Assembly (NCBI RefSeq): GCF_014841125.1
Contig: NZ_JACYTQ010000008.1
Location: 1 to 64,000 of the forward strand
Length of the DNA stretch: 64,000 nt
DNA from: Echinicola arenosa
GTDB lineage: Bacteria; Bacteroidota; Bacteroidia; Cytophagales; Cyclobacteriaceae
Reading direction: 5' to 3'
The notes below the pieces were generated by a model, which did not search any database, was not told where the DNA came from, and worked only from the letters and a program-made list of their open reading frames with translations. Numbering within the stretch: position 1 is the first letter of the stretch; each line of letters starts with the position of its first letter. Positions 2,972 to 22,386 of this stretch are shown here, piece after piece. Position numbers and translations under genes: made by a program.

Positions 2972-3118
2972 ATCGTATTGATAAAGTATTGATTTGGATG
3001 ATACTTTTGGAATCATGTGTTTCTTTATTCAAAAAGGTTAATAATTGATAAGCCTCATTTTTAATCTTCCTGAGACTCCACCCAAAGTCTTATCTCTCAC
3101 CTAAAATCTAAAGTATTC

Positions 3119-5450: not shown

Positions 5451-6728
5451 CTATTCATTTAAGGTTATAGTTAGTTCATTTACCAAGTTATTAAGATAAT
5501 TTTCCAAAGCGGTATAACCATACTTGTCTGTCCGGTTTCTATCGCTGGGATCAAAAGGATCTAATCCTTCTTTCTTTTCATATCGATCAGGCATACCATC
5601 ATTATCGGTATCTTTTGGTGCTTTTCCACCTTTTACTTTTCCCGGTCCTCGCATTGGCAAGTCCATCTCATCACTTATGGTCCGGCCCTTCATTCCCAAA
5701 GACTTCAAATCAGAAATTAGAAATTCATCCACTTCGTCGCGTTGTAGGGAGGCTCCCACTTCACGGACAACTTGTTCATAGGCCTCTTCTGCTGTCAAAA
5801 CAGGTACTTCAGGATAGTCAAATGGTTCTTCCATCCAAGTTACAGGCTCATAAACTTTTCTTCCAACCACACTCCCGTCTAGCTGTCCATTAAAATTACC
5901 ATCATACCAATTATCCCGGGCATATATATGAAAGTTTTCATTGGATCGATTAAATGGCGGTGTATCACCAGTTTCAGGGCCGGCGATAAAGTAATTGCCT
6001 ACGACATTGGCATAGGACTTCCCTTGCGAACCTCCACCTTGAATGTAACCAGCCACCGCCCAATTATAGACCACATTATTGACATATTGATTGGTTCCTT
6101 TCACTTTGGGATTTCTTGTATGGTTATTGATCCAAAGACAGGATAGAATCGAAACTCCGCCAGAGGGTTGAATCAATCCCCCAGTGGAATGTGTCTGCAA
6201 TCCTTGTCCAATGATGGAATGCTGCAAGGTGACATCCTTTACATCACCATTTAAGTCAAAAGTGCCATCTCTTCCCCAAGTAATTGAAACATGATCAAAA
6301 ATCATATCATGTCCATGAGCCATGGCAACTGCATCTTTACCTTTGTCGCCAACCTTGCCCATCCTTACTCGAATGTAGCGTGTGATAGTGTTATTGGCAT
6401 CTGAATAGGAAAGCCCATTCCCATAAATGGTAATCCCATCACCAGGCGCTGTCTGTCCGGCGATCGTAATATTTTCTTGTACAACTATCCGGGAATTGAT
6501 CCTGATCACTCCGCCCACTTCGAAAATCACCGTCCGATTGGGTTGACTAACAGCATCCCGAAAAGATCCCGCGCCTTCATCATTCAGATTGGTAACCTTA
6601 TATACTTCTCCTCCTCTTCCGCCGATAGCAAACCTTCCAAAACCTTCAGCTCCCGGGAAGGCCAGCTGTTGTCCATAGGTCATGGATGTGACCAAAAAGG
6701 CGAGTACTACTAATACATTCTTTTTCAT
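5451..6728 (-). CDS. PL1-family pectate lyase, secreted
   Basis: Parallel beta-helix pectate lyase cleaving polygalacturonate by beta-elimination with Ca2+. Residues FPGAEGFGRFAIGGRGGEVYKVTNLNDEGAGSFRDAV open the fold, IFDHVSITWG matches the WIDH-type calcium site, and NHTRNPKVKG carries the catalytic Arg segment. A C-terminal calcium-type repeat (DTDNDGMPDRYEKKEGLDP) is present. The start is placed at the internal Met (6728), which begins the signal peptide MKKNVLVVLAFLVTSMTYGQ; an in-frame Met at 6773 would add 15 non-signal residues. It is separated from the upstream susD by a terminator and palindromic repeats, so it may have its own promoter. It supplies unsaturated oligogalacturonides to GH105. 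Confidence 0.92.
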   Translation of the reverse strand: MKKNVLVVLAFLVTSMTYGQQLAFPGAEGFGRFAIGGRGGEVYKVTNLNDEGAGSFRDAVSQPNRTVIFEVGGVIRINSRIVVQENITIAGQTAPGDGITIYGNGLSYSDANNTITRYIRVRMGKVGDKGKDAVAMAHGHDMIFDHVSITWGRDGTFDLNGDVKDVTLQHSIIGQGLQTHSTGGLIQPSGGVSILSCLWINNHTRNPKVKGTNQYVNNVVYNWAVAGYIQGGGSQGKSYANVVGNYFIAGPETGDTPPFNRSNENFHIYARDNWYDGNFNGQLDGSVVGRKVYEPVTWMEEPFDYPEVPVLTAEEAYEQVVREVGASLQRDEVDEFLISDLKSLGMKGRTISDEMDLPMRGPGKVKGGKAPKDTDNDGMPDRYEKKEGLDPFDPSDRNRTDKYGYTALENYLNNLVNELTITLNE

Positions 6729-6862
6729 GTTAATTTTTAATTCTGTGTTTCGGGAATTGCCAATCCATTTCATGACTCAGATCCGTACCAATCCCCCTCT
6801 TTCTCTGCTTACAAAGAATTTTGATTCTTGCATCTTGACGATAGAGATTTAGTCATGCGTAT

Positions 6863-6899
6863 TAAAAAAAGACAAGACCGGGTAAAATATCACCCGATC
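6863..6899 (-). terminator. Terminator after the SusCD/fasciclin operon
   Basis: Read on the minus strand, an 8-bp stem (6892-6899 with 6876-6883, one G-U pair) encloses an 8-nt loop and is followed by a T-rich tract (6863-6870 read in reverse). It lies 137 bp past the susD stop and splits binding/transport genes from the downstream enzyme genes. Confidence 0.6.
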
Positions 6900-6928
6900 C
6901 TGTACTGAATTAACAAACCCCTAGTGTC

Positions 6929-6998
6929 AAGTCAAAATAAATTTGACTTCTCAACTCCGCTCGAAATGAGCTCAATTTGTCAGATCGAGCGGAGTTGA
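6929..6998. repeat. Two adjacent palindromic elements, REP-like
   Basis: First palindrome: AAGTCAAA (6929-6936), 5-nt loop, TTTGACTT (6942-6949). Second: TCAACTCCGCTCGA (6951-6964), 20-nt loop, exact complement TCGAGCGGAGTTGA (6985-6998). The GC-rich 14-bp arms stand out from the AT-rich spacer and resemble dispersed extragenic palindromes of Bacteroidota. Whether it recurs elsewhere in the genome cannot be seen here. Confidence 0.55.
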
Positions 6999-7035
6999 TT
7001 TCACTATTCATGTTTTATATGGAACAGACTTCGGT

Positions 7036-8670
7036 TTACTTACTTAAATCATAGTCAACAAACCAGTTTTCAGGTTGCATCAGCAAGCTTCTGATGCTTT
7101 CTCTCTTGCCCGCTGGGTATTTGGCACTGACCCTGTCCGCCAACATGGAAGGGTCACCCCACCTTTTGGCCATCCGGATCATGGCAAAGTAAGATCGGGC
7201 CTCACCAGCACTTTCCATGCAAGTTTCTTCCAAGAGTAGGCTATCCAACCCTTTTTTATATTCCTCCACCTTCTCTGGTGTGTCTAATTCATCCTTACTC
7301 AAACCTTCAGGGAAAACGGGACCAAGATCTACGCGTCTCCTTACGCCCCAGTTTATGTTAATGGCAGCATTATAGGTCTCATTGTCTAATGGATACTGAA
7401 GATTTCCTTCATTCTTGGAGAGATAATTCTGTACTCCATCATTCAGGAAGGCTTCCGCTTCCTTAAATTTTTCCATTTGATTGAGTGCTTCTGCTATAAA
7501 GAGGTGGATATCCCCAGCCCTGTATAGCGCAATGTGTACATCGTTTTTGTAAATATTATCTGCCGTCTCGTGAGCTCTGCTAAACTTTCTGACCACCCAT
7601 TCACCATTTTGCCTCCAGTATGTGTAATCTTCCCCTCGGTACCGGTCTCCAATGGTGATTCCATCTTGACGAACCTGTTGCTGAAACCTTTGCATCGCCA
7701 CTTCAGTTGGACGCAAATAGTATTTATTGGGCTCAGTGTTGGAGAAAAAATCAATCAGGTGGTTGGTCTGGTGTCGTTGGTAATCAAACGGAACAATGTT
7801 GATCAGTTCCCTTGTCTTGGTAATCGGGTCCCGGTAAAAAAACTGAATCCACTCCCCATTATAATCATCATTACCCAATTTGTAACGACCACTTCCTTGG
7901 TCATAAATAAAGGACATGCCCAAGCTTACGACTTGTTCATAGTTGCCATTCCAAAGATAAAGCTCAATCAGCAAAGGACTTGGTGAGGGACAGATCATGT
8001 TCCAAGTTAAATCTTGCGCTGAAGTACTCACGCCCGGAAATAACAAATCTGACCAAACCAGCACCTTTTTGCCGTCAATGCCATTGACCCCACCTTCCAT
8101 CAAACTGATCAATTGGCCGATCAGCTCATCAAACTGCATGACGGGATATTTGGAAATATCTTCCTCTTTGGTCAAGGGTTGGTCCAAGTACACGGCTTCC
8201 CCATAAAGCTTGGCCAGCATAAGATAAGACCAAACCTTAAATCTAATGGCACCACTCACCAAGGGTTCAAAAACAGCATCTTCTACCGCATCTGGGTTTG
8301 ATTCTTTGTACTCAAAAGCCTTTCGAATATAGTTATTGGCATTATTGATTACATCATAATAACCACTAGGATCTGCAAAGGAATTGTCCTCACTGATCGT
8401 ATGATTATAAATATCCCATAGTTCCTGTGGCGCATTATCTGTGGGTTCCAGAAAATCTCCACGGAGTTCCGAAAGAAAAACTCCCTGATCTGCCACTGTC
8501 TGTACCTTAGCTGCAATGCCCATGTAACCTGAATACAGTTCATTGGTATTGCCGATATAATTTTCTTCCAGTAGGATGTCGTCCGCATCAGGCTCAAAGT
8601 AACTTTCACAGCTGCCCAAAGCCATCAGTCCCACTATTAATGTGCATTTATATAACAATTTATTTTTCAT
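7036..8670 (-). CDS. SusD/RagB-like surface glycan-binding lipoprotein (pair 2)
   Basis: SusD-family lid protein that caps a SusC transporter and captures glycan at the cell surface. 544 residues with lipobox ending at Cys21 (MALGSC), followed by acidic residues (ESYFEPDADD) that fit the Bacteroidota surface-export signal. The C-terminal RagB/SusD region has the typical DIHLFIAEALNQMEKFKEAEAFLN helix and GVRRRVDLGPVFPEG; the N-terminal SusD-like helices contain YDVINNANNYIRKAFEYK. The gene starts 11 bp after its partner susC ends. This pair differs strongly from pair 1, so the two may take different pectin fragments. Confidence 0.93.
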   Translation of the reverse strand: MKNKLLYKCTLIVGLMALGSCESYFEPDADDILLEENYIGNTNELYSGYMGIAAKVQTVADQGVFLSELRGDFLEPTDNAPQELWDIYNHTISEDNSFADPSGYYDVINNANNYIRKAFEYKESNPDAVEDAVFEPLVSGAIRFKVWSYLMLAKLYGEAVYLDQPLTKEEDISKYPVMQFDELIGQLISLMEGGVNGIDGKKVLVWSDLLFPGVSTSAQDLTWNMICPSPSPLLIELYLWNGNYEQVVSLGMSFIYDQGSGRYKLGNDDYNGEWIQFFYRDPITKTRELINIVPFDYQRHQTNHLIDFFSNTEPNKYYLRPTEVAMQRFQQQVRQDGITIGDRYRGEDYTYWRQNGEWVVRKFSRAHETADNIYKNDVHIALYRAGDIHLFIAEALNQMEKFKEAEAFLNDGVQNYLSKNEGNLQYPLDNETYNAAININWGVRRRVDLGPVFPEGLSKDELDTPEKVEEYKKGLDSLLLEETCMESAGEARSYFAMIRMAKRWGDPSMLADRVSAKYPAGKRESIRSLLMQPENWFVDYDLSK

Positions 8671-8681
8671 AGCTGAGCGTA

Positions 8682-11600
8682 TTAGAATTGTAGGTTAAAA
8701 CCAAACTTCACGGTAGTCGGTAATGGCAAAGACCCAAAATCAACTCCTTGCATGTGAGGCTGATAAGAATAGGACAAAACCGGATCAAGCCCTAAGTAAT
8801 CGGTAAGTGTCAGCAAGTTTTCGCCCGCGATATACACTTCCCCACCTTCAATGAAGCTGAGCCTACCCAATTGATAACTTAAGGTTACATTGTTCAATCG
8901 CAGGTACGATCCATCTTCAATCCACCTGTCTGAAAAGCGACTGTTTCCCATCGGATCTCCATACATCGCTTTGGGTATATCGGTTACCTGCCCATCTGTT
9001 TGCCACCTGCGGTCAGCTGCCAAGGATTGGTTTCTAAAGTCACTCAATGATTCCATTTCTCTCCTCACCCCATTGTAGATCTGATTACCAGAGCTAAAGG
9101 TAAATTGGGCCGAGAGTGATAATTTATGATACCTCACCTGCGTAAAAAAGCTCCCAAAAAAGTCAGGGGAAGCATTTCCTATTATGGTACGGTCTTGATC
9201 ATTGATCACACCATCGCCATTCAGGTCTTCAAAAGCTACATCTCCTGCATTAAACTGGTCACCTTTATAGTCTACCAAATTGAGCACATCTGCTTCTTCT
9301 TGCGTGCTGATGATCCCATTAGATACATAACCATAAAAACTATATGGATTTTGTCCCTCTGCCGATACTAGTGCCCAATCGCCAGGCATTTCACGGACGA
9401 GCTGACCATTTTCAGCCGCCATTTCGCTGATAACATTTTTGTTTTTGTTAATCGTACCGCCAATACTCCAATTCCAGTCACGCTGGTCAACTAAGCTAAA
9501 CTGAAGTCCAGCCTCGATTCCTTTGTTTTCCAGTTTGGCTCCATTGACATACATACTTTGAATTCCATACACGGAAGAAATTCCTTTGGGATAAATCACA
9601 TCTGATGAGATGGTTTGATATACTCCAATACTTGCCATCAACCGTTTATTAAAGAAACTACCATCAATGCCAGCATCCACTGTTTGATTTCGCTCCCAGG
9701 TCAGCTGGGTATTGGCCACATTCCCATTTACAATTCCTGCTAGTTGGCGGTAGGCCTGACTGGAAAAATATTGTTGGCTCAACCCTGTTGGGTATTGACT
9801 ATTGCCGGTAAGACCATAACCCAAATGGACATCCAGTTTGTCTACCTTTTGGTTGTCCATCAACCAAGGACTATTTTTAGCTTTCCAAGTCAATTCAAGT
9901 CCTGGAAACACACCTACTCTTCCGGTGTCTTTTCCTGTAGATGACGCTCCATCTGCAGCGACATTCAGTGAAGCCATAAATTGATCTGCAAATTGATAAT
10001 GTGCATAACCAAAGAGACTCATCCAGTTCCAAGAATTATAATATCCTGAAAAATACCTTCCGTCAGCCTCCACATAGGACAAGGTGGTGTAAAAATCGGA
10101 GCTGGTATTTCTCCCAAAACCTCCATCAAATTCATGGCGTGTCATCAAGCCTTGAAAGCCTATACCAGCATCCAGTTGGTTTCCTGCCAAAGCTGCAGAA
10201 TAGTCTGCATTTACTTTGTAAAACAGGTTGGAAACTTTACCGGTACCTGCTCTGGCAGTATTGAGTGCCACTCCTTCTTCCAAAGGAACAATCGTCTGAC
10301 TAGACCTTCCAGGAATGAATGAAGTTTGTCGTTTATAACTGCTGTAATAGCCGAATACACCTTGAATAAGGGTGTTGTCATTGGCTTGATAGTTAAGCCC
10401 CGTATTAAGGAACACATCAAAATTGTCCGACTCCATTTTGGTGTCATTCATGACGGATAAGGGATTGGAAACCCCAAACTGTCTCACAGCATCATAGGCT
10501 GGCAGCTGATTATTGTATTCGTCTTTCTTAAAAGGACTTAAGATGGGCGCTTTGTATAAAGCAGCCATCAGGGGATTGGAAGCATCAGAAAGGATCTGTT
10601 CATGAAGTTTACTGTTCCCATAGGTAAGCCCCATGGATGTTACCAATTGAAACTTCTGACTCAAAGCGATCTGCGCATTGAGGCGGGTGGTATAGCGGGT
10701 GAAATTGGTTTTATCCATGGTCCCACCTTGATTGCTGGCTCCAACAGATAAATCGTATTGGGCAATGGCATCTCCCCCCTTTACCCGAAGGTGATTAGAG
10801 GTCACGAAAGATGACCTATTGATCAGCTCTTGCCAGTTGGTCTGGTTATTATAGAGGAAATTATAATAATAATCTGGATCATCTCTTAGAAAAGGAAAAA
10901 GATCCAACATGTCCCCCATGTCTTCATAGCGGGTAAGTCCCACATCACCAATATAGCTTTTGAAATCGTCTACCCCCAACACAGGGAGTTCCTTGTTATT
11001 AAAAGCAACCCCATATTGACCAGAAAACTCAATAACGGTTTCCATATCATTGGGTGTTGAGGTTTCTATCAATAACACACCATTTGAACCTAGAGATCCG
11101 AATCGTGATGCTTCACTACCTTTTACCAATCGAATCTGGTCAATATCATTGACACTGATCACATTGAAAATACTGGAGGAATACCCTTCTATTATCGGTG
11201 AATTGTTCATATCGGGAAGATATGGCATCCCATTGATGACAATCAGCGGGCCATTGTTCGCTGTAAGGCTTCTGATACCTCTCAAGTTCACGTAAGCACC
11301 TTCTCCTGGCATGCCACTTTTATTAATGACATTTAATCCCGGAAAAGCCCCTTGCAGGACATCTTCCACATATAATGCACTGGGCTTGAAACGCTGGGCC
11401 TGCATTACTTCTGCTTCCATGGCTCCATTTGGAGCATTTTTAACCGGTATTTCATAGTAATCTGCAGTTTGGGGGATCAAAACAACTTCCAAGTAATCCC
11501 TTCCCAGTACAGGAATGATTTTTTCCTGATATCCTGGTGCCCAAACTTTAAGTTTCCCTGTTAATTGATCCACCTCCAGACTAAATTCACCTGATTCATC

Positions 11601-11786
11601 CGATTGTGCTGTACTTTCCTGCTTATCCAATGAGATATAGGCATTGCTGACAGGATCATTATCATAAGGGCTGAGTACTTTTCCCTTGAGTACTTGCTGG
11701 GCCATTGTTCCAGAGGCAAAGACCAAGAGCAAGGCGACAAGCACTCCTATTTTTTTGAATCTATTCATTGTTCCTTCAGTTTTCAT
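8682..11786 (-). CDS. SusC/RagA-like TonB-dependent outer-membrane transporter (pair 2)
   Basis: 1034-residue outer-membrane porin that imports oligosaccharides using TonB energy. Order: signal peptide, CarboxypepD-reg-like domain (VLKGKVLSPYDNDPVSNAYISLD, residues about 33-110), plug with LRGIRSLTANNGPLIVINGMPYL and DIDQIRLVKGSEASRFGSLGSNGVLLIETS (about 165-245), then the 22-strand barrel ending in an aromatic (FGFNLQF). The ATG at 11784-11786 overlaps the stop of the upstream fasciclin gene as ATGA, suggesting translational coupling. The next in-frame ATG (11768) would give a cleaner signal peptide (MNRFKKIGVLVALLL) and is the main alternative start. No N-terminal secretin/STN domain is visible. 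Confidence 0.94.
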   Translation of the reverse strand: MKTEGTMNRFKKIGVLVALLLVFASGTMAQQVLKGKVLSPYDNDPVSNAYISLDKQESTAQSDESGEFSLEVDQLTGKLKVWAPGYQEKIIPVLGRDYLEVVLIPQTADYYEIPVKNAPNGAMEAEVMQAQRFKPSALYVEDVLQGAFPGLNVINKSGMPGEGAYVNLRGIRSLTANNGPLIVINGMPYLPDMNNSPIIEGYSSSIFNVISVNDIDQIRLVKGSEASRFGSLGSNGVLLIETSTPNDMETVIEFSGQYGVAFNNKELPVLGVDDFKSYIGDVGLTRYEDMGDMLDLFPFLRDDPDYYYNFLYNNQTNWQELINRSSFVTSNHLRVKGGDAIAQYDLSVGASNQGGTMDKTNFTRYTTRLNAQIALSQKFQLVTSMGLTYGNSKLHEQILSDASNPLMAALYKAPILSPFKKDEYNNQLPAYDAVRQFGVSNPLSVMNDTKMESDNFDVFLNTGLNYQANDNTLIQGVFGYYSSYKRQTSFIPGRSSQTIVPLEEGVALNTARAGTGKVSNLFYKVNADYSAALAGNQLDAGIGFQGLMTRHEFDGGFGRNTSSDFYTTLSYVEADGRYFSGYYNSWNWMSLFGYAHYQFADQFMASLNVAADGASSTGKDTGRVGVFPGLELTWKAKNSPWLMDNQKVDKLDVHLGYGLTGNSQYPTGLSQQYFSSQAYRQLAGIVNGNVANTQLTWERNQTVDAGIDGSFFNKRLMASIGVYQTISSDVIYPKGISSVYGIQSMYVNGAKLENKGIEAGLQFSLVDQRDWNWSIGGTINKNKNVISEMAAENGQLVREMPGDWALVSAEGQNPYSFYGYVSNGIISTQEEADVLNLVDYKGDQFNAGDVAFEDLNGDGVINDQDRTIIGNASPDFFGSFFTQVRYHKLSLSAQFTFSSGNQIYNGVRREMESLSDFRNQSLAADRRWQTDGQVTDIPKAMYGDPMGNSRFSDRWIEDGSYLRLNNVTLSYQLGRLSFIEGGEVYIAGENLLTLTDYLGLDPVLSYSYQPHMQGVDFGSLPLPTTVKFGFNLQF

Positions 11787-13381
11787 CAGTAGTTATTTTG
11801 GGTGGGTACCAAAGCCCAGTGGTAAAGCTTCATTTCTTCTCTTGAGCTCTTGCCCAAAAGCGCTACCTCCACCTTGATTTTAAATGATCTCACCTCATTG
11901 CCTGAGATATTGACAATACCAACAAGACCACCCAGTCCGTCCCATTTCGTACCAGAAACAGTTCTAGTACTTCGATCATAATTCCATGGTGATGATGGCT
12001 CTACATTCAATTCGGAAGCAACCAGTTCACCATCTACATAGACATTGAGGAAAGGGTGATTTTTAGATTGTACCCCCATGTAGAGATTGTACTCCCCTGG
12101 TGGCACTTCCACTACTGAGGCTGTTGTGGAACCATCGTCATTTTTATCCAGCTTTACAGGGGTATAATCAACGGACAAAGGTTGACCTGGAATATTGTCT
12201 CCAAAAAGTCTGAGTATGGTGTAGGTTCCCGAAACATTCAAACTTGGAAAGGAGTAATTATCGGTTCCTTGAGATCGGATTTCGGTCGCATTGTTAAAAG
12301 TAAACAACTCATCACGCTGCTCATCTGGAACAAATTCGTAATAGTAAAATAATTGCTTAATGGCTGATATATGGACATTGTTAGGAATTTTCAGGAAGTT
12401 AACATCATAGACCCTTCCATTACTCATGCGCTTGAATTGAGGATTTACTCCTTGCACAGAAGTTTTCCATAGCTTACCGAATGCTGATACGAGATCCTCT
12501 TCACTGCCATAATCCTCCACCACCTTATCATAAAAAACGGCATCCATGATCCAGTTCCATGCTGTAAGCGAGTCAGATTGAATAAAAGGCTTTCCAAACT
12601 GATCATATAGTCCCAATAAATTGTCAAAACAGGTTTCCACCACCTCATTGCTCGGAACAAACATGGTTACCTGAGAGAATTCTGACCTAAAGTCAACTTC
12701 TTCGAAAATTGGGTTTTCAATGACGAAAGCAGAATCATAAATGGTATTACCTGATTTGTCCACTCCAATAGGAATACTGTTCGATGCATCAAAAACGGTA
12801 TCATTTTTTGCAAAAACAGAATCCCTGATCATGGAATAGTCATCAGAAAGACTATACAAGTAGTCATAGACGCTTTGGTCTGGCACCATCAATTCGCTGA
12901 TTTCATGAACTACCCCATTTTGGCAAAATTGATTACCATTGGTAACCATGGCATCTGCTACCATGATATTTTCTTCTGAAACCCTGGTTACCGGAATATA
13001 TTTTCCGTTTAGAGATCGAAGCCTGAGTCCATCCCTTAATTTACTCATGTCATAAGTCAGGTTATTGACATGATAGCGAAGCACAAATTCAGCTTCAAGA
13101 TCCATTGCCTGCAACGCCTCCATGGCATCATTGTTCACTGCCCATACCGACAAATACTGGTCTCTTGTAAGTTCTTCCGCAATACCATTGGCTTCCAATG
13201 CCTCAACAAATTTGCTGTACTCTGGCTTGCTTTTAAGATAATCCAATAAGTTAAGTGAAGAGACCACATGGCTCTCATCAGCACCTTCCAATCCATAATG
13301 CTCATCCCAAGTCTCCTTGCAGGAAAAGCAGCAGATCAAAAGCATTCCGATAATATATTTAAGATTTTTCATTTGCTTCAT
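11786..13381 (-). CDS. Fasciclin (FAS1) domain lipoprotein
   Basis: 531-residue lipoprotein (Cys21) with two FAS1-like modules (about residues 45-170 and 175-345). The cues are NLLDYLKSKPEYSKFVEAL, YLSVWAVNNDAMEAL, NGVVHEISELMVPDQSVYDYL and VTMFVPSNEVVE. A C-terminal beta-rich domain (about 365-531, GTYTILRLFGDN...PPGEYNLYMGVQSK...FLNVYVDGELV) looks like a carbohydrate-binding sandwich. FAS1 domains are adhesion modules; no enzyme motif is seen. It lies between a fasciclin paralogue (2 bp upstream) and susC pair 2 (4-bp overlap), the position where SusE/SusF-type accessory binders are normally encoded. Surface glycan binding is therefore inferred. Confidence 0.82.
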   Translation of the reverse strand: MKQMKNLKYIIGMLLICCFSCKETWDEHYGLEGADESHVVSSLNLLDYLKSKPEYSKFVEALEANGIAEELTRDQYLSVWAVNNDAMEALQAMDLEAEFVLRYHVNNLTYDMSKLRDGLRLRSLNGKYIPVTRVSEENIMVADAMVTNGNQFCQNGVVHEISELMVPDQSVYDYLYSLSDDYSMIRDSVFAKNDTVFDASNSIPIGVDKSGNTIYDSAFVIENPIFEEVDFRSEFSQVTMFVPSNEVVETCFDNLLGLYDQFGKPFIQSDSLTAWNWIMDAVFYDKVVEDYGSEEDLVSAFGKLWKTSVQGVNPQFKRMSNGRVYDVNFLKIPNNVHISAIKQLFYYYEFVPDEQRDELFTFNNATEIRSQGTDNYSFPSLNVSGTYTILRLFGDNIPGQPLSVDYTPVKLDKNDDGSTTASVVEVPPGEYNLYMGVQSKNHPFLNVYVDGELVASELNVEPSSPWNYDRSTRTVSGTKWDGLGGLVGIVNISGNEVRSFKIKVEVALLGKSSREEMKLYHWALVPTQNNY

Positions 13382-13383
13382 TT

Positions 13384-14979
13384 TTAGTCTACAGGAGTAA
13401 ATCGAATATGATCCAGCGTAAGTAACTCCCCATCTATGGCCACTATTCTCAGGGTATGACTGGAGGTTTCATCAAAGGTGAACGAACTGGTCATTCTTCT
13501 TTCCAAGGCCCTATCATACTTGCTGTTGGATATTGGCCATTGGCTGCCCAGACGCTTGCCGTCCATGGAGCACTGCAGGTAGCCGGTATTGGATGAGGCC
13601 TTATAACTCAAATAGATCATGGTGATTTCATAACTCCCCTTGATCAATACCGGAGTTTCCATCTCCACCCATCCAGAAGGCCCGAGTTCAAGGCGTAAGT
13701 GGTCATGGTTAAGCGCATCCGCATACCAAATCCCATCTGCTCCTCTGTTATTCCGATAACTCACCACATTGGATTTATATTCAGGAGTGGACTTCCAATT
13801 ATAGCAAGTCACTTCTTCTTCTGTAATGGTCCTGGTGTAAGTAGAACCCAAACTTGGATTCTGATATTGGTCACATATGGCTTGTAGGTCTGAATAATCT
13901 GTCAAGTCCCACAATACCGTCACCCTTTTTGGGGTAAAAAGAGGCATCCAATTATTTATCTCGTGAATGACTCCATTTTTACAATTGATGTTCTCTTGGA
14001 TAAAATGGACACCGCTACCTATCTCCTCATCAAAATTGATCACCAATTGGCCAGACTGATCTGAAAAATTAAGCACTTCATTTGTAGCGATAGTATTGAT
14101 ATTCATCGAGCTCTCACCATCTGGAAAAGCCCCTAAATCGGCAAAAGATCTAAGTTGATTTAACAAATGATAATCAACATATTTAAAAAGTGGATTTTCA
14201 GGATCAGTATAGTTATCATCAGCCACTTCCAATTTGGCTGCCAGATCAGCAAGGCTCATAATTCCTTCCTGCGCATAGACCTCATTGGGCACTGCAAAGG
14301 CGGTCAATCGAATTCTATATTCCAAAGGATTTCCTTCTGCATCACTTCCTTCCACCACAACCGTGTTGAGTATTTCATTTCTTCCTGTGGCTTGGACGGC
14401 TTCACGGAAGATACTGAACCGCTCTTCTGCCAAACGGTCCATGATGGTAGCCCTTACAGGAACCAAAACATCCTCTAATCCATGGATAACTCCATTGGTC
14501 GCTTTAATATCCAATTCTTCAATCCTGGATTCACCATTGATGTAAATGGCGTTCAGACCACCTTCCCTGAATTCTATGGACAAATTATCATCTGTAGCAT
14601 TCCGGTCGTTGATCGTTCCATTTTCAAATTGGCTTTGTGTAATTTCCTTGGAATAAATGGTATGATATTTCACCAGATATTCAGCATCCTCTTTCGGTAT
14701 CTCCGTAACATTGGCAAAGCCATTGTTTTCCAAATAACGTTTTACCCCTTCATTACTTGGTGCAAAAACCGTATAGACACTTCTCAGATTAAGGGTATTA
14801 TACATGTCTGCATGTCTCATCAGCTCCACCCAAAGTGAATATTCTTCTGAACGTGAATCCAGTAAAGATGCTATAGGGAGTTCTTCAAAGGCTGTGAAAG
14901 TGGTGTTCTCATAAGGATCTTCACAGGATCCCAGGGCCATGAATAGCCCCAAAAGGTATATCAAATAAGTCTTTTTCAT
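13384..14979 (-). CDS. Fasciclin (FAS1) domain lipoprotein with C-terminal beta domain
   Basis: 531-residue lipoprotein (lipobox MALGSC, Cys19). The first FAS1 module has LWVELMRHADMYNTL, VYTVFAPSNEGVKRYLENNGF and NGVIHGLEDVLVPV (about 37-165). The second has SIFREAVQATGRNEIL, FAVPNEVYAQEGI and NGVIHEINNWMPLFTPK (about 180-345). The C-terminal region has two Trp/Tyr-rich beta segments (WVEMETPVLIKGSYEITMIYLSYK; HTLRIVAIDGELLTLDHIRF). It is the same length as its downstream neighbour but clearly diverged, so an old duplication is possible. It starts 7 bp after susD pair 1. A surface glycan-binding or adhesion role is inferred from position. Confidence 0.82.
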   Translation of the reverse strand: MKKTYLIYLLGLFMALGSCEDPYENTTFTAFEELPIASLLDSRSEEYSLWVELMRHADMYNTLNLRSVYTVFAPSNEGVKRYLENNGFANVTEIPKEDAEYLVKYHTIYSKEITQSQFENGTINDRNATDDNLSIEFREGGLNAIYINGESRIEELDIKATNGVIHGLEDVLVPVRATIMDRLAEERFSIFREAVQATGRNEILNTVVVEGSDAEGNPLEYRIRLTAFAVPNEVYAQEGIMSLADLAAKLEVADDNYTDPENPLFKYVDYHLLNQLRSFADLGAFPDGESSMNINTIATNEVLNFSDQSGQLVINFDEEIGSGVHFIQENINCKNGVIHEINNWMPLFTPKRVTVLWDLTDYSDLQAICDQYQNPSLGSTYTRTITEEEVTCYNWKSTPEYKSNVVSYRNNRGADGIWYADALNHDHLRLELGPSGWVEMETPVLIKGSYEITMIYLSYKASSNTGYLQCSMDGKRLGSQWPISNSKYDRALERRMTSSFTFDETSSHTLRIVAIDGELLTLDHIRFTPVD

Positions 14980-14986
14980 GGCTAGG

Positions 14987-16456
14987 TTAATTTAGGTTAT
15001 CGTAATATGGGTTTTGGACCAAAAGTCTATTGGCTGACAATTCATTAATGTGTATGGGTAGATAATGACTGTTTTCATCCAAAAGCTTGGACCGAATGAT
15101 GGGAGCAGAACTTGCTGGAGCAGTCAACAAGACTTGTGTGATCAGGTAATCTTTGTATTGGTAATTGTTCCTGCTTCCCACACGAAGGAGGTCGTACCAG
15201 TTTTTTCCTTCTCCCACAAACTCCCGTGCTCTTTCGTCCATCACCAGCTGTAGCATTTCTAGCTCGGTACTGGCCGAAGATACCGGGGCTGAGATTTGGG
15301 CCCTTTCTCTGATCGCATTAACGATTTCTACAGCTTCATCATAACTGTTTGTTCCCTTCATCACCAATGCTTCTGCTTTCATCAAATAGATATCCGCGAT
15401 ACGATAAATAATCCAGTTTTGATCGCTGTATGTTCTAGGAATTCCTGTACCTGCTTCTGCTCCTAAATATTTCCATACTTTGGAATCCTCTTCGGTATAA
15501 GAAGCACCTTTGCCACGAATGTCCTCTTCTTCTTGTTGAAAAAGCTGCGCGGTGTTTTCGGAAATTACATAGCGGCTATTGGTTCCAAACCAAGACACCA
15601 AACTATTGGTCTGGTTTTTATCAAATTCATATTGAAGTTCAAAAATCCCCTCGTTGGAATTACCAGGGTTGAATATGGTGTACCAGTTGTTGTTGTTATT
15701 CATCATCCCTTGAAGCAAACCAAGCTGCCCACTATTGATGACAGCATCACAAGCCGCGATAGACTTATCATATTCTTCCGTCCACAAATAGACATCTGCC
15801 AAAGTAGCATAGATGGCCCATTTGGTGGAACGTCCTTTGGTTTCCCAAATCGTAGGAGCGATCTCTTTAGAATACTCCAGTGCTCCTTCGAGATCCGATT
15901 TGATTTGTTGATACACTTCATTGGCAGGCGACTTTTCCTTCTCAAAAGACTGGCTGTCATCCATGTAAGGTTCCGTAATCAAAGGAACATCTCTAAAATT
16001 TCTAACCAAATAGAAATATGCAAGTCCTCTGAGGAAATACGCTTCTGAAAGGTAAGACTGCATGACATTTTCACTAAATGATGGATCTTTATCCACCACG
16101 GTAGGGCCATATTTAATGACCATGTTAGCATAGTTGATGACCTGATAAAACTTATCCCATTTGACAAATTCATTACCAGGACCAATGTCCCATTGATTGA
16201 TGCGGTAGATATCTACATCGATGGTTCCAAAGCCCATGGAAAGTCCATTGCCTCTCATTTCACCCCAAACCAGCATTTGCTCCATGGATTCACGCAGCCG
16301 TACATATCCGGCTCCCAGCACTGCCTCTACTTCTTCTTTATTGGCCCAATATTCGTCGCTGACCTGGTTATTTTCAGGTTGCAGTTCTAGCCAATCGTTA
16401 CAAGAACTCAAAGACAATGTCAATATCGTTAGTAAGAATATATATATCTTTTTCAT
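14987..16456 (-). CDS. SusD/RagB-like surface glycan-binding lipoprotein (pair 1)
   Basis: 489-residue SusD homologue (lipobox LSLSSC, Cys19, then NDWLELQPENNQVSDEYW). Typical features are SEAYFLRGLAYFYLVRNFRDVPLITEPY with the TPR-like helices, WAIYATLADVYLWTEEYDKSIAACD, WIIYRIADIYLMKAEALV and RAREFVGEGKNWYDLLRVG near the C-terminus. It follows susC pair 1 by 11 bp and forms the extracellular lid of that transporter. This protein is closer to canonical SusD than the pair 2 protein. Confidence 0.95.
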   Translation of the reverse strand: MKKIYIFLLTILTLSLSSCNDWLELQPENNQVSDEYWANKEEVEAVLGAGYVRLRESMEQMLVWGEMRGNGLSMGFGTIDVDIYRINQWDIGPGNEFVKWDKFYQVINYANMVIKYGPTVVDKDPSFSENVMQSYLSEAYFLRGLAYFYLVRNFRDVPLITEPYMDDSQSFEKEKSPANEVYQQIKSDLEGALEYSKEIAPTIWETKGRSTKWAIYATLADVYLWTEEYDKSIAACDAVINSGQLGLLQGMMNNNNNWYTIFNPGNSNEGIFELQYEFDKNQTNSLVSWFGTNSRYVISENTAQLFQQEEEDIRGKGASYTEEDSKVWKYLGAEAGTGIPRTYSDQNWIIYRIADIYLMKAEALVMKGTNSYDEAVEIVNAIRERAQISAPVSSASTELEMLQLVMDERAREFVGEGKNWYDLLRVGSRNNYQYKDYLITQVLLTAPASSAPIIRSKLLDENSHYLPIHINELSANRLLVQNPYYDNLN

Positions 16457-16467
16457 GATTTGCTCGA

Positions 16468-19400
16468 TTAGAAGTTCATATTTACACCCAGCGCAAATCG
16501 CTTTGGACGTGGTGTTGCAGCCTTGTCCACACTGAGCATATAGATGTTACTGGAAAGATTCACTTCAGGATCCTGACCGGAATAATTGGTCCAAGTATAA
16601 AGGTCCTGTGCGGTAAAGAAAATATCGAATCGTTCGATTTTGTTCTTGGTTAAGAAGGCTTTCGGAAGTGAATACCTCAAGGAAACCGTCTTTAATCTTA
16701 TAAAAGAACCATCTTCCACAAACCTGTCTGAGCCTAGGTAATTGTAACCTTCATTGTAAAGGGCCCTTGGAATATCGGTATCATCTCCCTCCAGTCTCCA
16801 ACGCTGAAGCACGGCCGTACTTTGATTGGCCGTTCCGTACATGTTTTCCGTATTGATACGGGTTTGGTTGACGATTTTCTGTCCAAATCTTCCATGCAGA
16901 AAGGTGGTGAACATAAAGTTTTTCCAACGAAGATTGAATCCACCACCTGCTGTAAAGACCGGCATGGCATTTCCCAGATAAACAATGTCATATTGGTCTA
17001 TCACACCATCACCATTTACATCTTCGTATTTGGCATCACCCGGATACACCCGTCTATTTCCATTTTGCATATAGACCAATTCACCATCGATGTCATACAT
17101 TAAGTTACCTTCGTTATCCTTTGCATAGGTCTCTTCTCCATTTTGGTAAACACCCTCATAGCGGTATCCATAAAAGGAGCCAATAGGATTTCCCTCCACG
17201 ATCTTATGTGCATAATTTCCATTGTCGAAGGTGTAATTTTCGAACAGCATATTGTCCGGAAGCGACACCACTTCATTGCGGTTTCTGGCAAGATTGAAAT
17301 TAAATGATAGGCCCAAGTCTTCACGTCTGATGGCATCATAGTTAAAAATCAACTCCCATCCCCTGTTGTATACTTCTCCGGAATTGTAATACCTTACTTC
17401 AGAAAATCCGGTCGAAGAAGGTAGGCTATAGTCTTTCTGGAGCAGGTCTGTCGTTGCACGGTCATAAACTTCGGCGGTGACATAAAGTCTACCTTGCATC
17501 AAAGAAAGGTCAATTCCAATATTAGACTGCGTGATGGTTTCCCAACGGAGGTTTTCCAGCTGGATGCTGGCAGGAGAAATGGCCACCATATCCATATATC
17601 CAGGGGTAATCGGACTGAAAGTACCGATATAAGGAAAGGCTCCTCCGGGAGGATTTCCACTTTTACCCCAGCTGAAACGTAATTTACCTAATTCTATTCC
17701 TGCGATTCCGTCCATAAATGGCTCATCGCCAAACTGCCATGCCAGACCAAGGGAAGGGAATCCTGCCCAACGATTGCTTGCACCCAGGCTAGAATTGGCT
17801 TCCCAGCGGTAGCCCCCGGAAATGATGTATTTACCATTAAAGGTATAATGCCCGTTGGCGATGGCTGCAATCCTTCTTGACATCGAGTTATCTGATTTCA
17901 TGGAAGCCACGGCAGCACCATCTGTAGGGTCACTTAAAGGACCCGAAGCGTTACCGCTTGTTTCGCTGACATATCCAAAACTTCTAGCTTCGTTGGTCTG
18001 CACCAAACCACTCATGATGACGTGGTGCTTATCTGTAATGGCTTTGTTAAAGATCAGCTTGTTTTCAGTGTTGATGTAAAGTTGATCGGATAGCAGGTCA
18101 GAGCTCCTGTTAAAATAAGGATCTGTCCAAAGTACGCCTGTAACGGACTGAGGTAGAAATTTCCTGTTCTTGGTAGTCCTGGCATCAAAACCTACCGTAC
18201 CTGAATATTCTAAGTCCGGATTAAATCGATAGCGCAAACGGAAAATCACCCTGGCATTGTCTGCTTTGGTTTCGTTGCTGGACTCATTGACCAAAGCCAC
18301 TGGATTATAATACTTGTTGGAGGCGTAGCTTCCCTGAAAGTTCTCTAGTGGTGTAAAATACTCAGAAGTCCGGTTGCCATTATCATCCAACACATAAGGA
18401 CTCATATTCGGCATTTTAAACATGGCCATGCCTCGAGCAGAGGACATACCGCTTTCCGACCAGTTAGCATCTTTCAAACTCTGCGAATAGGACATGTCTG
18501 CATTGACACTCAATTTATTTGAAAACTTATAGGTCACACTGGCCATTGAATTAAAACGATCCAATGAGGTTCCCATCGTCGTACCTACATCTCTTAAATA
18601 CCCCAATGAAACTCTGTAAATGGCCTTATCTCCACCACCACTCAGAGAGAAGTTATTATCTAAAAAATAGCCTAATTGGGTAACTTCGTTGACCCAATTG
18701 GTATTTTGATTGTACTCATCAAAGTACACCCACTCTGGGTCAAAGTTAATCTCCTGAGTCTGAAAAAGTCCTTGTGTATAGCCTGATCCAGAAAGATAAC
18801 CTACGTCATTGATGGAATTCCATATGCCATCTTGCATCAGGCTGACATACTGCGCGCCATCCAGCAAAGGAATTGTATTGGGTTCTCTTTTGACTTCAGA
18901 CTTGGTGGAAAAGGAAAAGCGTGTCTTACCTTTTCTCCCTTTCTTGGTCTTAAAAACCAACACGCCATTTGCCCCCTGAGAACCCCAAATAGCCGTGGCA
19001 GCAGCATCCTTGAGTACTTCTATGGACTCGATATCATTTGGGGAGATATTTACGAGTGCCCCAAAGTCCTGGTCATTGGCCGTGGCAAAGTTAAAATCAT
19101 CACCAAAATTGGTAGGATAAGGTACTCCATCCACTACAATCAGTGGTTCAGAATTGGCATTCAAAGAAGAGGTACCCCGAATCCTGATGGAACTTCTGGA
19201 TCCAGGATCAGCACCAGAAATGATATCCACATTGGCCATCCTACCTTGGAGACCTGACTCAATTGAGGTCATGGGTACTTCTTCCAACTTTTTGACATCA
19301 AAGCGCTGGCTAGAAGACACTTGCTCTCTTTCACTGATGCCCAATGAGTTGACTTCTACCCGCTCCGCTACCACTTCTGCACTACCATACTCAAAAGCAT

Positions 19401-19707
19401 CCTCTTTTAGGACAATGTCTAAATTGGTCTGATTACCAAAGGATTCCCTGATGGTTTTAAAGCCAATATAGGAAAATACGATAGTCAGGTTTTGGTCAGC
19501 AGGAATAGCCAATCGATAATTACCGTTTTCATCAGAAACAGTACCGTTTAAACTTCGTTGCTGATCATTCTCTACAAAGATACTCGCACCTATCAAGGGC
19601 TCGCCGCTCTGGTCAGTTATTTTGCCTGTCAATACTGTTTGCTGGGCCATCAAAGGCATCGCGAGTAGCAGCATTAGCAGGCAGCTAATGATATAAAATG
19701 TTTTCAT
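16468..19707 (-). CDS. SusC/RagA-like TonB-dependent outer-membrane transporter (pair 1)
   Basis: 1079 residues with signal peptide ([23 protein letters not shown]), CarboxypepD-reg-like domain ([21 protein letters not shown]...GNYRLAIP), TonB plug ([57 protein letters not shown]) and a large beta-barrel ending in aromatic NMNF. It imports oligosaccharides across the outer membrane with the SusD encoded next. It starts 16 bp after the stop of the 731-aa fasciclin gene, in the same operon. Confidence 0.95.
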   Translation of the reverse strand: [1079 protein letters not shown]

Positions 19708-19722
19708 TTGAATATTATTGGG

Positions 19723-21918
19723 TTATTGTCCTGAATTGAGCACTTTATCGATTTGATAAACAGCTGCATCTACATAAATTTTCGGGAACGTGCTGATCAC
19801 ATCAGCAGTTTCTCCATTTGCAGACCTCAACTGAAGGCCTGACCCATTGTCCAAAAGTGTAATGGCACTGAACGTATCCCCAAATTCCTGTGAGGTAAGG
19901 AATTCTCCTTCCATTTCCATCCCCGGAAAAGCATAGTCATTGATACCGTTTGAATTAATGGGGATAAAGTAATAGCGCAAGTAATCTTCCAATTCGTCAG
20001 AATCGGTAGGAATCAAACCTTGCTCCTTTGCCTGGATAATCGCCTCATTAGTAGGCGCAAAAAGCATGTAGTTATCTCCAAACAAAAATTCAAATTCGTT
20101 TTGGGGATCCACTAAGCCTGCTTGAGACAACAGCTTGGAAAACTCTCCAAACTCTTGTATCGAACTGGTTCCTGAGCTCGCAGAAGCCACAATATACTTG
20201 AAGCTGCCTTCCTCACGGATCAGTGACCTTTCGACATCATAAGTTCTACCATTGATCAACTCACCTCCAACGCTGGTAGCAGGTGTAAATTCACCTAAAT
20301 TATAAATGTTAGAAGAAGCCACTCCTTGGTCAGTGACATAGAGATAGCTGAAGGGATTTCGGGTCCGGTAAACTTTGGTACCACTAATCTCAGTGATTTC
20401 CTCCGTCACAATGTGGTTTTGAACAAAAGCCCTCATGGCCCCTGTGCTCATAGGAACCAAGATTCCTTCCGTATTTTCCACTTGAACAGCCTCGTCTCCA
20501 AACCTTAAAGGATTGCCTTCATCCCAAAAAATTTCACTGCCTCCATATATGGTATTTTTTATGACCTCGTCAGAAGGAATAAAAACCGTAAACTTCAAGG
20601 CATCCCCCATCAAAGCCTGTAATGTTCCTGACTGATAGACCATTTGCAAAAACATCTTGTACTTAGGATCCTTGAGCATCGGACTCATCACCCCTTTGAA
20701 CAAATCAGGGACGATCACTTCATTCAAACCATAATACACGCCATTTACCGCAATACCTTTGGCTTCCACATCTTGGGCAGGGTCAAATTGAATGGTATTT
20801 CCATAGGTACTTTGGATATCCCCTCGTTCTACTTCTGAAGGGAAAACGATGCTTCCGCTATAGACATGGTTAAAGAGTAGCAGCTGCATGGGCAAAAAGG
20901 GAACTTCTTCAAGAGTCGGATAATAAGTACCCCAATATTCATTAAAGAAAGATTGGATAGCTGCATTATTGGGAGCAAAAACATTATATGCATTGGCTGA
21001 TAGTTCGGCCAGGTTCGCATAATCAACCAATCCCGATCCTCCATTATAAGTCCATTCAGAAGCAATCTCAGGAAGTCCGGAATGCGTCTTGACATAAAGT
21101 GAATCCCCTGCATCTGCATAAGATTTTGAGGTCTCATCATCGTACCAATAATCGGTAAAACGATCATAGATACTGATAAAATCGCTGTATTGGCTTTCTT
21201 GCTTGAGTTCTTCATAAACCGTTTCCAATGGCTCAACCACCCTATCCACTACATAGACATAGCCATTGTCAGTGGGTACAGCATATTCTTTAACCGTTGC
21301 ATTGGAAATATTGAAACCACCTGTTCCAGTCCATGTGCTGGTGGGATAGAAATATTCGTAATTAGAGGCTGCATCGATGTTTTTCGAGGTAAAGATATTG
21401 TATGAAAAAACAGGTAAGAACCTCTCTTTGTGAAAAATCGTCCGCTCTTTCCCCGTAATAACATCCAATTCCACAGATATGGTATCCCGACTCTTGGTTC
21501 TGTGTTTGTAATATAGGCCAGCCATGGCGGGCTGATCCACTTCCTGTCCTTGGGGACGGTAATTGACAAAACGTTCACGGCTAAATGAATAATAAACCAG
21601 ATGATACCCAACCAGCTTTTTCACTTCTTTGGTGGGCATATCATCAATGCTACCGTAACCTTTTTCTGAAAGGTATTTTTCGAAAGCCTCATCAGGAGGT
21701 GCCAGGACTGTCACTATCCCCTTCCCCTCTACCAGACTTCGAAATCCTGCTTTATCCACCGCTTCTAAAAACATGGAAAAATCTCCTCGATCTTCCAGTA
21801 ATTCCCAGGCATTTCCTTTTAGCCACTCTGGACGTTCATAATGTTCTTCCCAGCCTACTTCCCTGCAAGCAAATAGCAGAAAGCAAGCTGAAAAAAGGCA
21901 AGTAATCCTTTTGATCAT
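19723..21918 (-). CDS. Multi-FAS1 (fasciclin) lipoprotein, first gene of the SusCD operon
   Basis: 731-residue lipoprotein (lipobox LLFAC, Cys18) with about four FAS1-like modules. Visible cues are FLEAVDKAGFRSLVEGKGIVTVLAPPDEAF (first), YNVFAPNNAAIQSFFNEYW (second), MFLQMVYQSGTLQALM...FTVFIPSDEVI (third) and FSKLLSQAGLVDP...YMLFAPTNEAIIQAKEQG (fourth). The residues after the Cys (REVGWEEHYERPEW) resemble the start of the smaller fasciclin gene (KETWDEHYG), suggesting homology. It leads the operon of two SusCD pairs and is likely a large surface-exposed binding protein. No catalytic motif is seen. Confidence 0.82.
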   Translation of the reverse strand: MIKRITCLFSACFLLFACREVGWEEHYERPEWLKGNAWELLEDRGDFSMFLEAVDKAGFRSLVEGKGIVTVLAPPDEAFEKYLSEKGYGSIDDMPTKEVKKLVGYHLVYYSFSRERFVNYRPQGQEVDQPAMAGLYYKHRTKSRDTISVELDVITGKERTIFHKERFLPVFSYNIFTSKNIDAASNYEYFYPTSTWTGTGGFNISNATVKEYAVPTDNGYVYVVDRVVEPLETVYEELKQESQYSDFISIYDRFTDYWYDDETSKSYADAGDSLYVKTHSGLPEIASEWTYNGGSGLVDYANLAELSANAYNVFAPNNAAIQSFFNEYWGTYYPTLEEVPFLPMQLLLFNHVYSGSIVFPSEVERGDIQSTYGNTIQFDPAQDVEAKGIAVNGVYYGLNEVIVPDLFKGVMSPMLKDPKYKMFLQMVYQSGTLQALMGDALKFTVFIPSDEVIKNTIYGGSEIFWDEGNPLRFGDEAVQVENTEGILVPMSTGAMRAFVQNHIVTEEITEISGTKVYRTRNPFSYLYVTDQGVASSNIYNLGEFTPATSVGGELINGRTYDVERSLIREEGSFKYIVASASSGTSSIQEFGEFSKLLSQAGLVDPQNEFEFLFGDNYMLFAPTNEAIIQAKEQGLIPTDSDELEDYLRYYFIPINSNGINDYAFPGMEMEGEFLTSQEFGDTFSAITLLDNGSGLQLRSANGETADVISTFPKIYVDAAVYQIDKVLNSGQ

Positions 21919-22124: not shown

Positions 22125-22335
22125 GGGTATGTTTGCATTTTTCAAATATTTTTTGTAATTATAATATGTACTATATTCACCTAAACCTGTATTATTTTTG
22201 CAGTAGATGACTAATATATCCTTGTTAAATCGGTTGCATAAAAAATATCTGCTTATTCTAAGAATTAAAAAAGAACAGAAAATATTGTAATTTTTGCAGA
22301 TTGACATTTCACAAACGATGGTGATAACAAATACC

Positions 22336-22368
22336 AAAAAAAAAGGGACCCCATGGAGCCCCTTTTTT
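22336..22368 (-). terminator. Terminator of the GH2 gene
   Basis: Inverted repeat with outer arms AAAAGGG and CCCTTTT and a GC-rich inner part that pairs well with G-U pairs on the minus strand. It is followed by a T-tract on that strand. It lies 19 bp past the GH2 stop and separates GH2 from the SusCD operon. Confidence 0.75.
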
Positions 22369-22386
22369 AAGCAATCATTTTTGGTT

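Follow-up and report, generated by a model that had tools for sequence, protein, structure and literature searches.

A seven-gene module of FAS1 lipoproteins and two SusCD pairs

We analysed a window of 64,000 nucleotides from Echinicola arenosa, which is one end of a 220,321-bp contig in a genome of 5.39 Mb. Open reading frame analysis placed seven genes on the minus strand between positions 7036 and 21918 that encode, in transcription order, the fasciclin (FAS1) lipoprotein FAS731, the transporter pair SusC1 and SusD1, two further FAS1 lipoproteins (FAS531a and FAS531b) and a second pair, SusC2 and SusD2 (Table 1). The intergenic gaps are 15, 11, 7, 2, −1 and 11 bp. The initial annotation of this DNA had listed these genes with gaps of 15 bp or less or small overlaps, and the coordinates, strand, order and gaps all bear it out. 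Its naming of the three lipoproteins as FAS1 proteins also holds, as PF02469 gives 99.5 bits for FAS731, 87.6 bits for FAS531a and 58.3 bits for FAS531b (cut-off 22 bits). FAS531a in addition contains DUF5108 (PF17133; 38.3 bits, cut-off 27.4 bits), a family to which FAS531b has no match.

The SusC1 protein has a PF07715 plug and an N-terminal CarboxypepD_reg domain, and PF07715 is also found in SusC2. Profile cut-offs were 368 bits for TIGR04056 and 23.1 bits for PF07980, the latter being only barely cleared by SusD2 (26.5 bits). The two SusC proteins are 30.5% identical and the two SusD proteins 24.1%; judged from their sequences, the pairs SusC1-SusD1 and SusC2-SusD2 represent distinct TonB-dependent importers.

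Table 1. Features of the module and its surroundings in the window.
Feature	Position	Strand	Assignment and support
FAS731	19723..21918	-	Lipoprotein, 731 aa, first gene of the module; PF02469 E 2e-28; lipobox LFAC
SusC1	16468..19707	-	TonB-dependent SusC/RagA transporter, 1079 aa; TIGR04056 715 bits
SusD1	14987..16456	-	SusD/RagB lipoprotein, 489 aa; PF07980 109 bits, PF14322 76 bits
FAS531a	13384..14979	-	Lipoprotein, two FAS1 domains and a C-terminal DUF5108 beta-sandwich; PF02469 E 9.9e-25, PF17133 E 1.5e-9
FAS531a C-terminal domain (residues 352-531)	13387..13926	-	CBM35/CBM6-like by predicted fold
FAS531b	11786..13381	-	Lipoprotein, two FAS1 domains and a C-terminal beta-sandwich; PF02469 E 1.2e-15
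FAS531b C-terminal beta-rich domain (residues 340-531)	11789..12364	-	Weak CBM-like fold match
SusC2	8682..11786	-	Second SusC/RagA transporter, 1034 aa; TIGR04056 537 bits
SusD2	7036..8670	-	Second SusD-like lipoprotein, 544 aa, divergent; PF07980 26.5 bits
Hairpins 3' of SusD2	6872..7010	-	Long stem within 6935-7010; terminator-like 6903-6872 with T run
PL1-like pectate lyase with TSP3-like repeat	5451..6773	-	NCBIfam PelZ weak, 95 bits (cut-off 840)
728-aa protein without Pfam family	3119..5305	-	NF053734 kojibiose hydrolase weak, 38 bits (cut-off 800)
GH88/105-type unsaturated uronyl hydrolase	1787..3016	-	PF07470 390 bits
GH28 polygalacturonase-type enzyme	203..1633	-	PF00295 100 bits
Terminator-like hairpin after the upstream GH2 gene	22339..22368	-	z -2.68 for 22325-22390

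Conservation of the module across Bacteroidota

Orthologues of the window locus are present in Echinicola pacifica, E. salinicaeni and E. shivajiensis (L100-L102), with FAS531a identities to the window protein of 72% in E. pacifica and 78% in E. salinicaeni. A second module with the same seven genes lies elsewhere in the E. arenosa genome (contig C15). When 395 genomes of the phylum were searched with a FAS531a profile, ten full-length places (605-866 bits) were obtained in eight genomes, seven of which places had built the searching profile; the next match scored 119 bits and covered the first FAS1 region only. All ten full-length places sit in the seven-gene module.

A scan of named genomes was keyed on the FAS531a C-terminal motif TP[VLP][LI][IV]KG[KSR]Y[KE]. 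It yielded 132 stretches, 125 of them confirmed, and the best 80 were kept, representing 79 distinct loci. The search itself guarantees FAS531a in each of them, but not the other six genes. All seven genes occur in the same order in 68 of the 79 loci, and nine others are cut by a locus or contig end. The families represented, which we take to be Chitinophagaceae, Sphingobacteriaceae, Flavobacteriaceae, Hymenobacteraceae, Cyclobacteriaceae and Bacteroidaceae, together with Tannerella, place the module in both free-living and gut Bacteroidota. In the two remaining loci, from Flavobacterium palustre (L143) and F. fluvii (L166), FAS531a stands alone beside GH2 with no SusCD, and L143 also has GH28.

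The DUF5108 family gave a further view of the gut lineages. It was found in 20 of 301 sampled Bacteroidaceae genomes, in 11 of 15 genomes of the genus that holds Phocaeicola coprophilus and in 18 of 158 genomes of another Bacteroidaceae genus (putative Bacteroides). Elsewhere it is rare, with four matches among 296 genomes of a phylum sample (two of them over the cut-off) and one among 123 genomes of the family of G664. Among the 47 distinct DUF5108 matches listed, 27 Bacteroidaceae loci were taken with flanks, L098 and L099 are two more, and 18 lie outside this count. The complete ordered module is present in 26 of the 27, including one (L247) in which FAS731 is split over two frames; the exception, L251, is a sub-threshold DUF5108 match. 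Four loci (L097, L117, L163 and L167) coincide with the copies of G810, G007, G253 and G150.

The recurrence of the order in 68 of the 79 named loci, in 26 of the 27 Bacteroidaceae loci and in the second E. arenosa copy shows that the arrangement is more than chance. The initial annotation had named a lack of conserved co-occurrence of FAS1 genes with SusCD as grounds for abandoning its proposal; the search for the same order in relatives found it strongly conserved across genomes.

How far one gene of the module has diverged correlates with the divergence of the others (r 0.88-0.97 in 68 cassettes), a pattern that joint inheritance would be expected to give. Partial correlations did not single out the FAS-SusCD pairs and were not used as evidence. 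With mean identities of 41, 39 and 33%, the three FAS1 proteins are the least conserved, the Sus proteins reaching 45-54%; the module is thus kept in composition rather than in sequence, and faster divergence of the FAS1 proteins is what would be expected of ligand-facing or surface parts.

We built a FastTree phylogeny of 100 modules from four genes (an alignment of 2516 columns, rooted at the midpoint and shown without support values). One branch groups the window module and its orthologues from three Echinicola species with the copies from gut Bacteroidaceae and Tannerella. The other holds all remaining modules, including the second E. arenosa copy and the Echinicola copies at rhamnogalacturonan I (RG-I) loci. 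Since different searches sampled the two branches, their make-up is not a census. The grouping of Echinicola window-type modules with those of gut Bacteroidaceae could reflect lateral transfer, a reading qualified by this biased sampling and by a tree that carries no support values.

Several copies have unusual settings. In [Flexibacter] sp. ATCC 35208, a single contig carries the entire module twice in inverted orientation (L106 and L107); the two copies score identically, and the duplication may be an assembly artefact. L107 was left out of the divergence correlations, the FAS1 domain counts, the tree and the analyses of identity, gaps and flanking enzymes. In a putative Bacteroides, two modules (L242 and L255, G1162:C38) lie in opposite orientation within ~40 kb. 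Locus L046 (898-15350, G002) encodes a FAS731-like protein, SusC, SusD, a FAS531a-like protein, SusC and SusD, with no match to FAS531b.

Domain architecture and lipobox of the FAS1 lipoproteins

An iterated FAS1 profile, trained on the same protein set in which the domains were counted, divided FAS731 into four tandem FAS1 domains (residues ~28-235, 228-410, 405-587 and 582-731). Four domains were counted in FAS731 in 63 of 68 cassettes, five in three and three in two, and FAS531a and FAS531b have two each in all 68. Only FAS731 is therefore FAS1 throughout; the other two proteins consist of two FAS1 domains followed by a beta-sandwich, making eight FAS1 domains per module. We predicted the structures of FAS531a and FAS531b with AlphaFold2 (predicted local distance difference test scores of 85.7 and 81.7, respectively), and each model shows a pair of FAS1 folds followed by a beta-sandwich at the C-terminus, which bears out the beta-sandwich-like ends that had been proposed for both 531-residue proteins. 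The top Foldseek matches of both models are TGFBIp and periostin.

These human extracellular matrix proteins, the best Protein Data Bank (PDB) matches by sequence and by fold, have four tandem FAS1 domains, as has FAS731. They differ in that the module proteins are bacterial lipoproteins encoded in a SusCD operon, and the likeness carries no evidence of a shared function.

The C-terminal domain of FAS531a gave further fold matches. Foldseek returned 7ehg, a xylan-binding-module entry (E 2.8e-7), the family 35 carbohydrate-binding module (CBM35) structures 2w1w (E 1.4e-6) and 2w47 (E 6.1e-6), the latter solved with delta-4,5-anhydrogalacturonic acid, 5fui (E 2.4e-5), and CBM22 and CBM6 entries. 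We assigned these matches to the C-terminal domain because of its all-beta make-up and the length of the targets. DUF5108 is detected at E ≤0.05 in 28 of 33 FAS531a C-terminal domains. In that of FAS531b no Pfam family passes its cut-off, and Laminin_G_3 appeared below it in one of six (E 0.0026). The predicted beta-sandwich of FAS531a thus resembles CBM35 and CBM6 by fold alone, that of FAS531b more weakly, and no sequence-profile relationship to these modules was found for either C-terminal domain.

The lipobox cysteine is invariant in the aligned proteins (Cys19 of FAS531a in 66/66, Cys21 of FAS531b in 62/62 and Cys18 of FAS731 in 7/7), the alignments taking in 65 of the 80 available FAS531a relatives and 61 of the 76 FAS531b relatives. 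A simple lipobox rule was satisfied by 53 of 71 FAS731, 55 of 79 FAS531a and 61 of 76 FAS531b proteins; it was also satisfied by SusD1 (67/76) and SusD2 (69/70), and by only 4/74 and 7/74 of the SusC barrels. An acidic residue lies within five positions after the cysteine in 40 of 53, 33 of 55 and 53 of 61 of the lipobox-positive FAS731, FAS531a and FAS531b proteins, respectively, which is only suggestive of surface exposure.

Pectin enzymes around the module

Downstream of SusD2 and on the same strand, the window encodes the PL1-like lyase, the 728-residue protein, the GH88/105-type hydrolase and the GH28-type enzyme, in this order. A homologue of the PL1-like lyase in L088 passes PF00544 (Pectate_lyase_4). 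In the second E. arenosa copy, the seven genes are followed by a PL11 rhamnogalacturonan lyase, DUF4861, a PcRGLX-type lyase and a GDSL esterase, and with these four beside the module the copy can be read as an RG-I locus. By gene content, both the window locus and the second copy combine SusCD with predicted pectin-active lyases or hydrolases, as a pectin utilisation locus does.

Enzymes of these kinds recur beside other copies. Within ~3 kb on each side, PL1, PL11, GH28 or GH105 occurs in 31 of the 67 complete cassettes, and any of nine query enzymes (≥100 bits) in 42 of the 67, both counts standing without a background rate. The module of Phocaeicola coprophilus is flanked by PL11 on one side and by GH28, GH105, a 728-aa-type protein and PL1 on the opposite side, nearly the set of the window. 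One Bacteroidaceae genome has two modules, one by PL11 and the other by PL1 and a 728-aa-type protein. A protein of the 728-aa type directly follows SusD2 in at least eight gut-type copies (L207, L211, L239, L241, L243, L245, L248 and L250); this position suggests that it is an enzyme travelling with the module.

Comparison with known Sus-like systems

The comparisons that follow draw on passages of the cited papers. In Bacteroides thetaiotaomicron, BT4145-83 was assigned to RG-I by transcription and a mutant in a hybrid two-component system regulator (Martens et al. 2011, PMC3243724). Within this locus, PUL77, a 2021 review names the SusCD pairs BT4164/65 and BT4168/69, and BT4167 as an RG-I-binding surface glycan-binding protein (SGBP; PMC8002723); a DUF5108 protein is listed within BT4164-69 (PMC10434189), and the PUL77 proteins given as changed in another study include BT4163, BT4164 and BT4165 side by side (PMC13088901). 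Two SusCD pairs with two genes between them, one encoding DUF5108, correspond to the layout of the module, in which case BT4163 would be FAS731. From these published gene descriptions, BT4163-4169 is very probably the same module. The two loci share two SusCD pairs around surface proteins, BT4167 being one of them, and differ in that FAS1 goes unmentioned in the published passages on the B. thetaiotaomicron locus and that the window enzymes are PL1, GH28 and GH105, not the B. thetaiotaomicron set.

Like SusE/SusF-type and other SGBPs, the module proteins are lipoproteins encoded after SusD, modular and extended, with a beta-sandwich distal to the lipid anchor; they differ in being built from FAS1 domains, in numbering three per module and in being common to two SusCD pairs. 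No Pfam or NCBIfam match to the SusE/SusF family was found in them. The initial annotation had seen FAS1 modules in the slot that SusE/SusF-type binders hold in classical loci, and FAS1 proteins without such a match do stand there; the B. thetaiotaomicron RG-I locus is very probably a precedent for this arrangement.

A model by analogy is offered by the levan and dextran utilisomes of B. thetaiotaomicron, in which accessory surface lipoproteins sit on SusCD. These are described as four-component complexes of one SusCD type, one SGBP and one glycoside hydrolase (PMC7618045), whereas the module has two SusCD types, three FAS1 lipoproteins and no glycoside hydrolase within its seven genes. In a symbiont paper, a section that deals with SusCD pairs also mentions an expressed protein with a fasciclin domain (PMC10199937). 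Our search of the open-access literature, with most subscription papers outside its coverage, returned no paper describing the module or FAS1 in a SusCD setting. We consider the module a variant of Sus-like uptake systems that is new at the level of description and very probably includes the known RG-I locus.

A proposed role in pectin uptake

We think it likely that the module is an importer of pectin fragments whose FAS1 lipoproteins serve as surface glycan-binding accessories, with the C-terminal beta-sandwiches binding and the FAS1 domains forming a stalk or scaffold. FAS531a and FAS531b share with SGBPs a lipoprotein signal with an invariant cysteine and co-encoding with SusCD, complete in 68 of the 79 loci. 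In the proposed mechanism, surface and periplasmic enzymes encoded beside the module would cut pectin chains, and the two SusCD pairs would import the fragments across the outer membrane. The three FAS1 lipoproteins would be accessory surface glycan-binding proteins of both importers, their tandem FAS1 domains forming a rigid stalk or scaffold on the cell surface. The C-terminal beta-sandwiches of FAS531a and FAS531b may catch pectic chains or oligosaccharides and pass them to the SusD lids, and FAS731, which has no such end domain, is the likeliest candidate for a spacer, scaffold or partner-binding part.

Several observations weigh against this interpretation. None of PL1, PL11, GH28 and GH105 lies in the ~3 kb flanks of 36 of the 67 complete cassettes. 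Insecticidal Cry toxins score like CBMs for FAS531a in Foldseek, xanthan lyase was also matched, and the output gives no aligned range. For FAS531b the CBM-like fold match is weak (7ehg, E 4.5e-4). Profile searches of both C-terminal domains against PDB sequences returned no CBM, and CBM_6 (PF03422) was found in one of 33 FAS531a C-terminal domains, at E 0.004, and in none of 26 from FAS531b. The equation with BT4163-4169 comes from gene descriptions and not from sequence. Searches for a Bacteroidota-type motif and for sigma-70-like sites found no promoter of the module; the former occurs six times in the window (3.3 expected) and nowhere upstream of the module, and the latter 37 times (40 in shuffles).

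The FAS1 domains might themselves bind pectin, with the beta-sandwiches secondary. They make up the whole of FAS731 and two thirds of FAS531a and FAS531b, eight are kept per module, other organisms have FAS1 in proteins that belong to the extracellular matrix or are linked to polysaccharides, and the Foldseek matches of FAS531b include stabilin-2, whose PDB title calls it a hyaluronic acid receptor. We judge this improbable, given that FAS531a has a separate domain of CBM-like fold and that FAS1 is not, to our knowledge, a carbohydrate-binding family. A FAS1-based pectin capture system feeding two transporters was what the initial annotation had proposed. Its two SusCD pairs, the conserved order and the pectin enzymes near many copies all stand; capture by FAS1 itself is not supported, the CBM-like domain being the C-terminal beta-sandwich of FAS531a and FAS731 consisting of FAS1 only. 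That proposal is thus partly supported, right in outline and with binding placed in a wrong, or at least unsupported, domain. We regard it as highly improbable that the FAS1 proteins are adhesins or envelope scaffolds that use the operon for the timing of their expression and play no role in catching glycans. Adhesion is the best-known function of FAS1, and eight other FAS1 loci in related genomes have no SusCD nearby (0/8), yet glycan uptake better fits the CBM-like end domain and gene positions that stay fixed within a two-transporter operon in distant families. SGBPs normally occupy the slot after SusD.

A stronger competitor, which we hold to be a serious possibility though short of even, is that the operon happens to unite two independent SusCD systems of the ordinary kind, each served by a FAS1 protein of its own, which take different pectin fragments without forming a joint machine. 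The low identity between the two SusC proteins and between the two SusD proteins marks them as distinct, and dual SusCD pairs are described as ordinary in B. thetaiotaomicron pectin loci for arabinan, homogalacturonan and RG-I (PMC8002723). Against this stands the occurrence of the seven genes together in 68 of the 79 loci, L046 being the only related arrangement without FAS531b; such cohesion implies joint use, not physical assembly. A single machine, in which both transporters would stand side by side on a FAS1 scaffold as a double utilisome that sorts different kinds of pectin fragment between the two pores, is by analogy conceivable, and we rate it as rather unlikely. Were it true, an adhesion module, FAS1, would be the scaffold of a nutrient importer whose composition is fixed over several families.

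Accessory surface proteins of Sus-like systems usually vary between loci. In the module, one constant set, three FAS1 proteins with two SusCD pairs, is retained in gut and free-living Bacteroidota alike. On the proposed role as a pectin-fragment importer, a testable part in pectin use follows for DUF5108 and for many FAS1 lipoproteins of Bacteroides and other gut bacteria. The module also offers a defined set for asking how two-transporter loci are built, the mixing and matching of components in complex loci having been left open in the Discussion of PMC7618045.

A probable transcription unit and its flanking hairpins

The long stem 3' of SusD2 has a z score of −5.9, and none of 200 shuffles folds as well (0/200). 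The hairpins there are the probable 3' end of the seven-gene unit, and the hairpin after the upstream GH2 gene is suggestive of GH2 being set apart from the module. Since hairpins lie on both sides and the gaps are tight, the seven genes are probably one transcription unit. The flanking hairpins are only suggestive of terminators, as terminator-like sites are hardly fewer in shuffled sequence (14.6) than in the window (19). An Rfam search of positions 1-30000 gave no match.

FAS1 genes outside the module

Linkage to SusCD as a general property of FAS1 genes was ruled out, because eight of nine other FAS1 loci of the relatives have no SusCD within the 12.7-18 kb covered; the ninth is L046. These loci indicate that FAS1 has other roles too. 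Three further FAS1 loci in the E. arenosa genome are mixed, two having Sus genes (L005 and L003) and one none (L004). At L005 (3241-5460, contig C1), a single-FAS1 lipoprotein of 211 residues directly follows another SusD, and at L003 (1-6508, contig C12), a 453-residue FAS1 protein lies upstream of another SusC and a SusD-like fragment.

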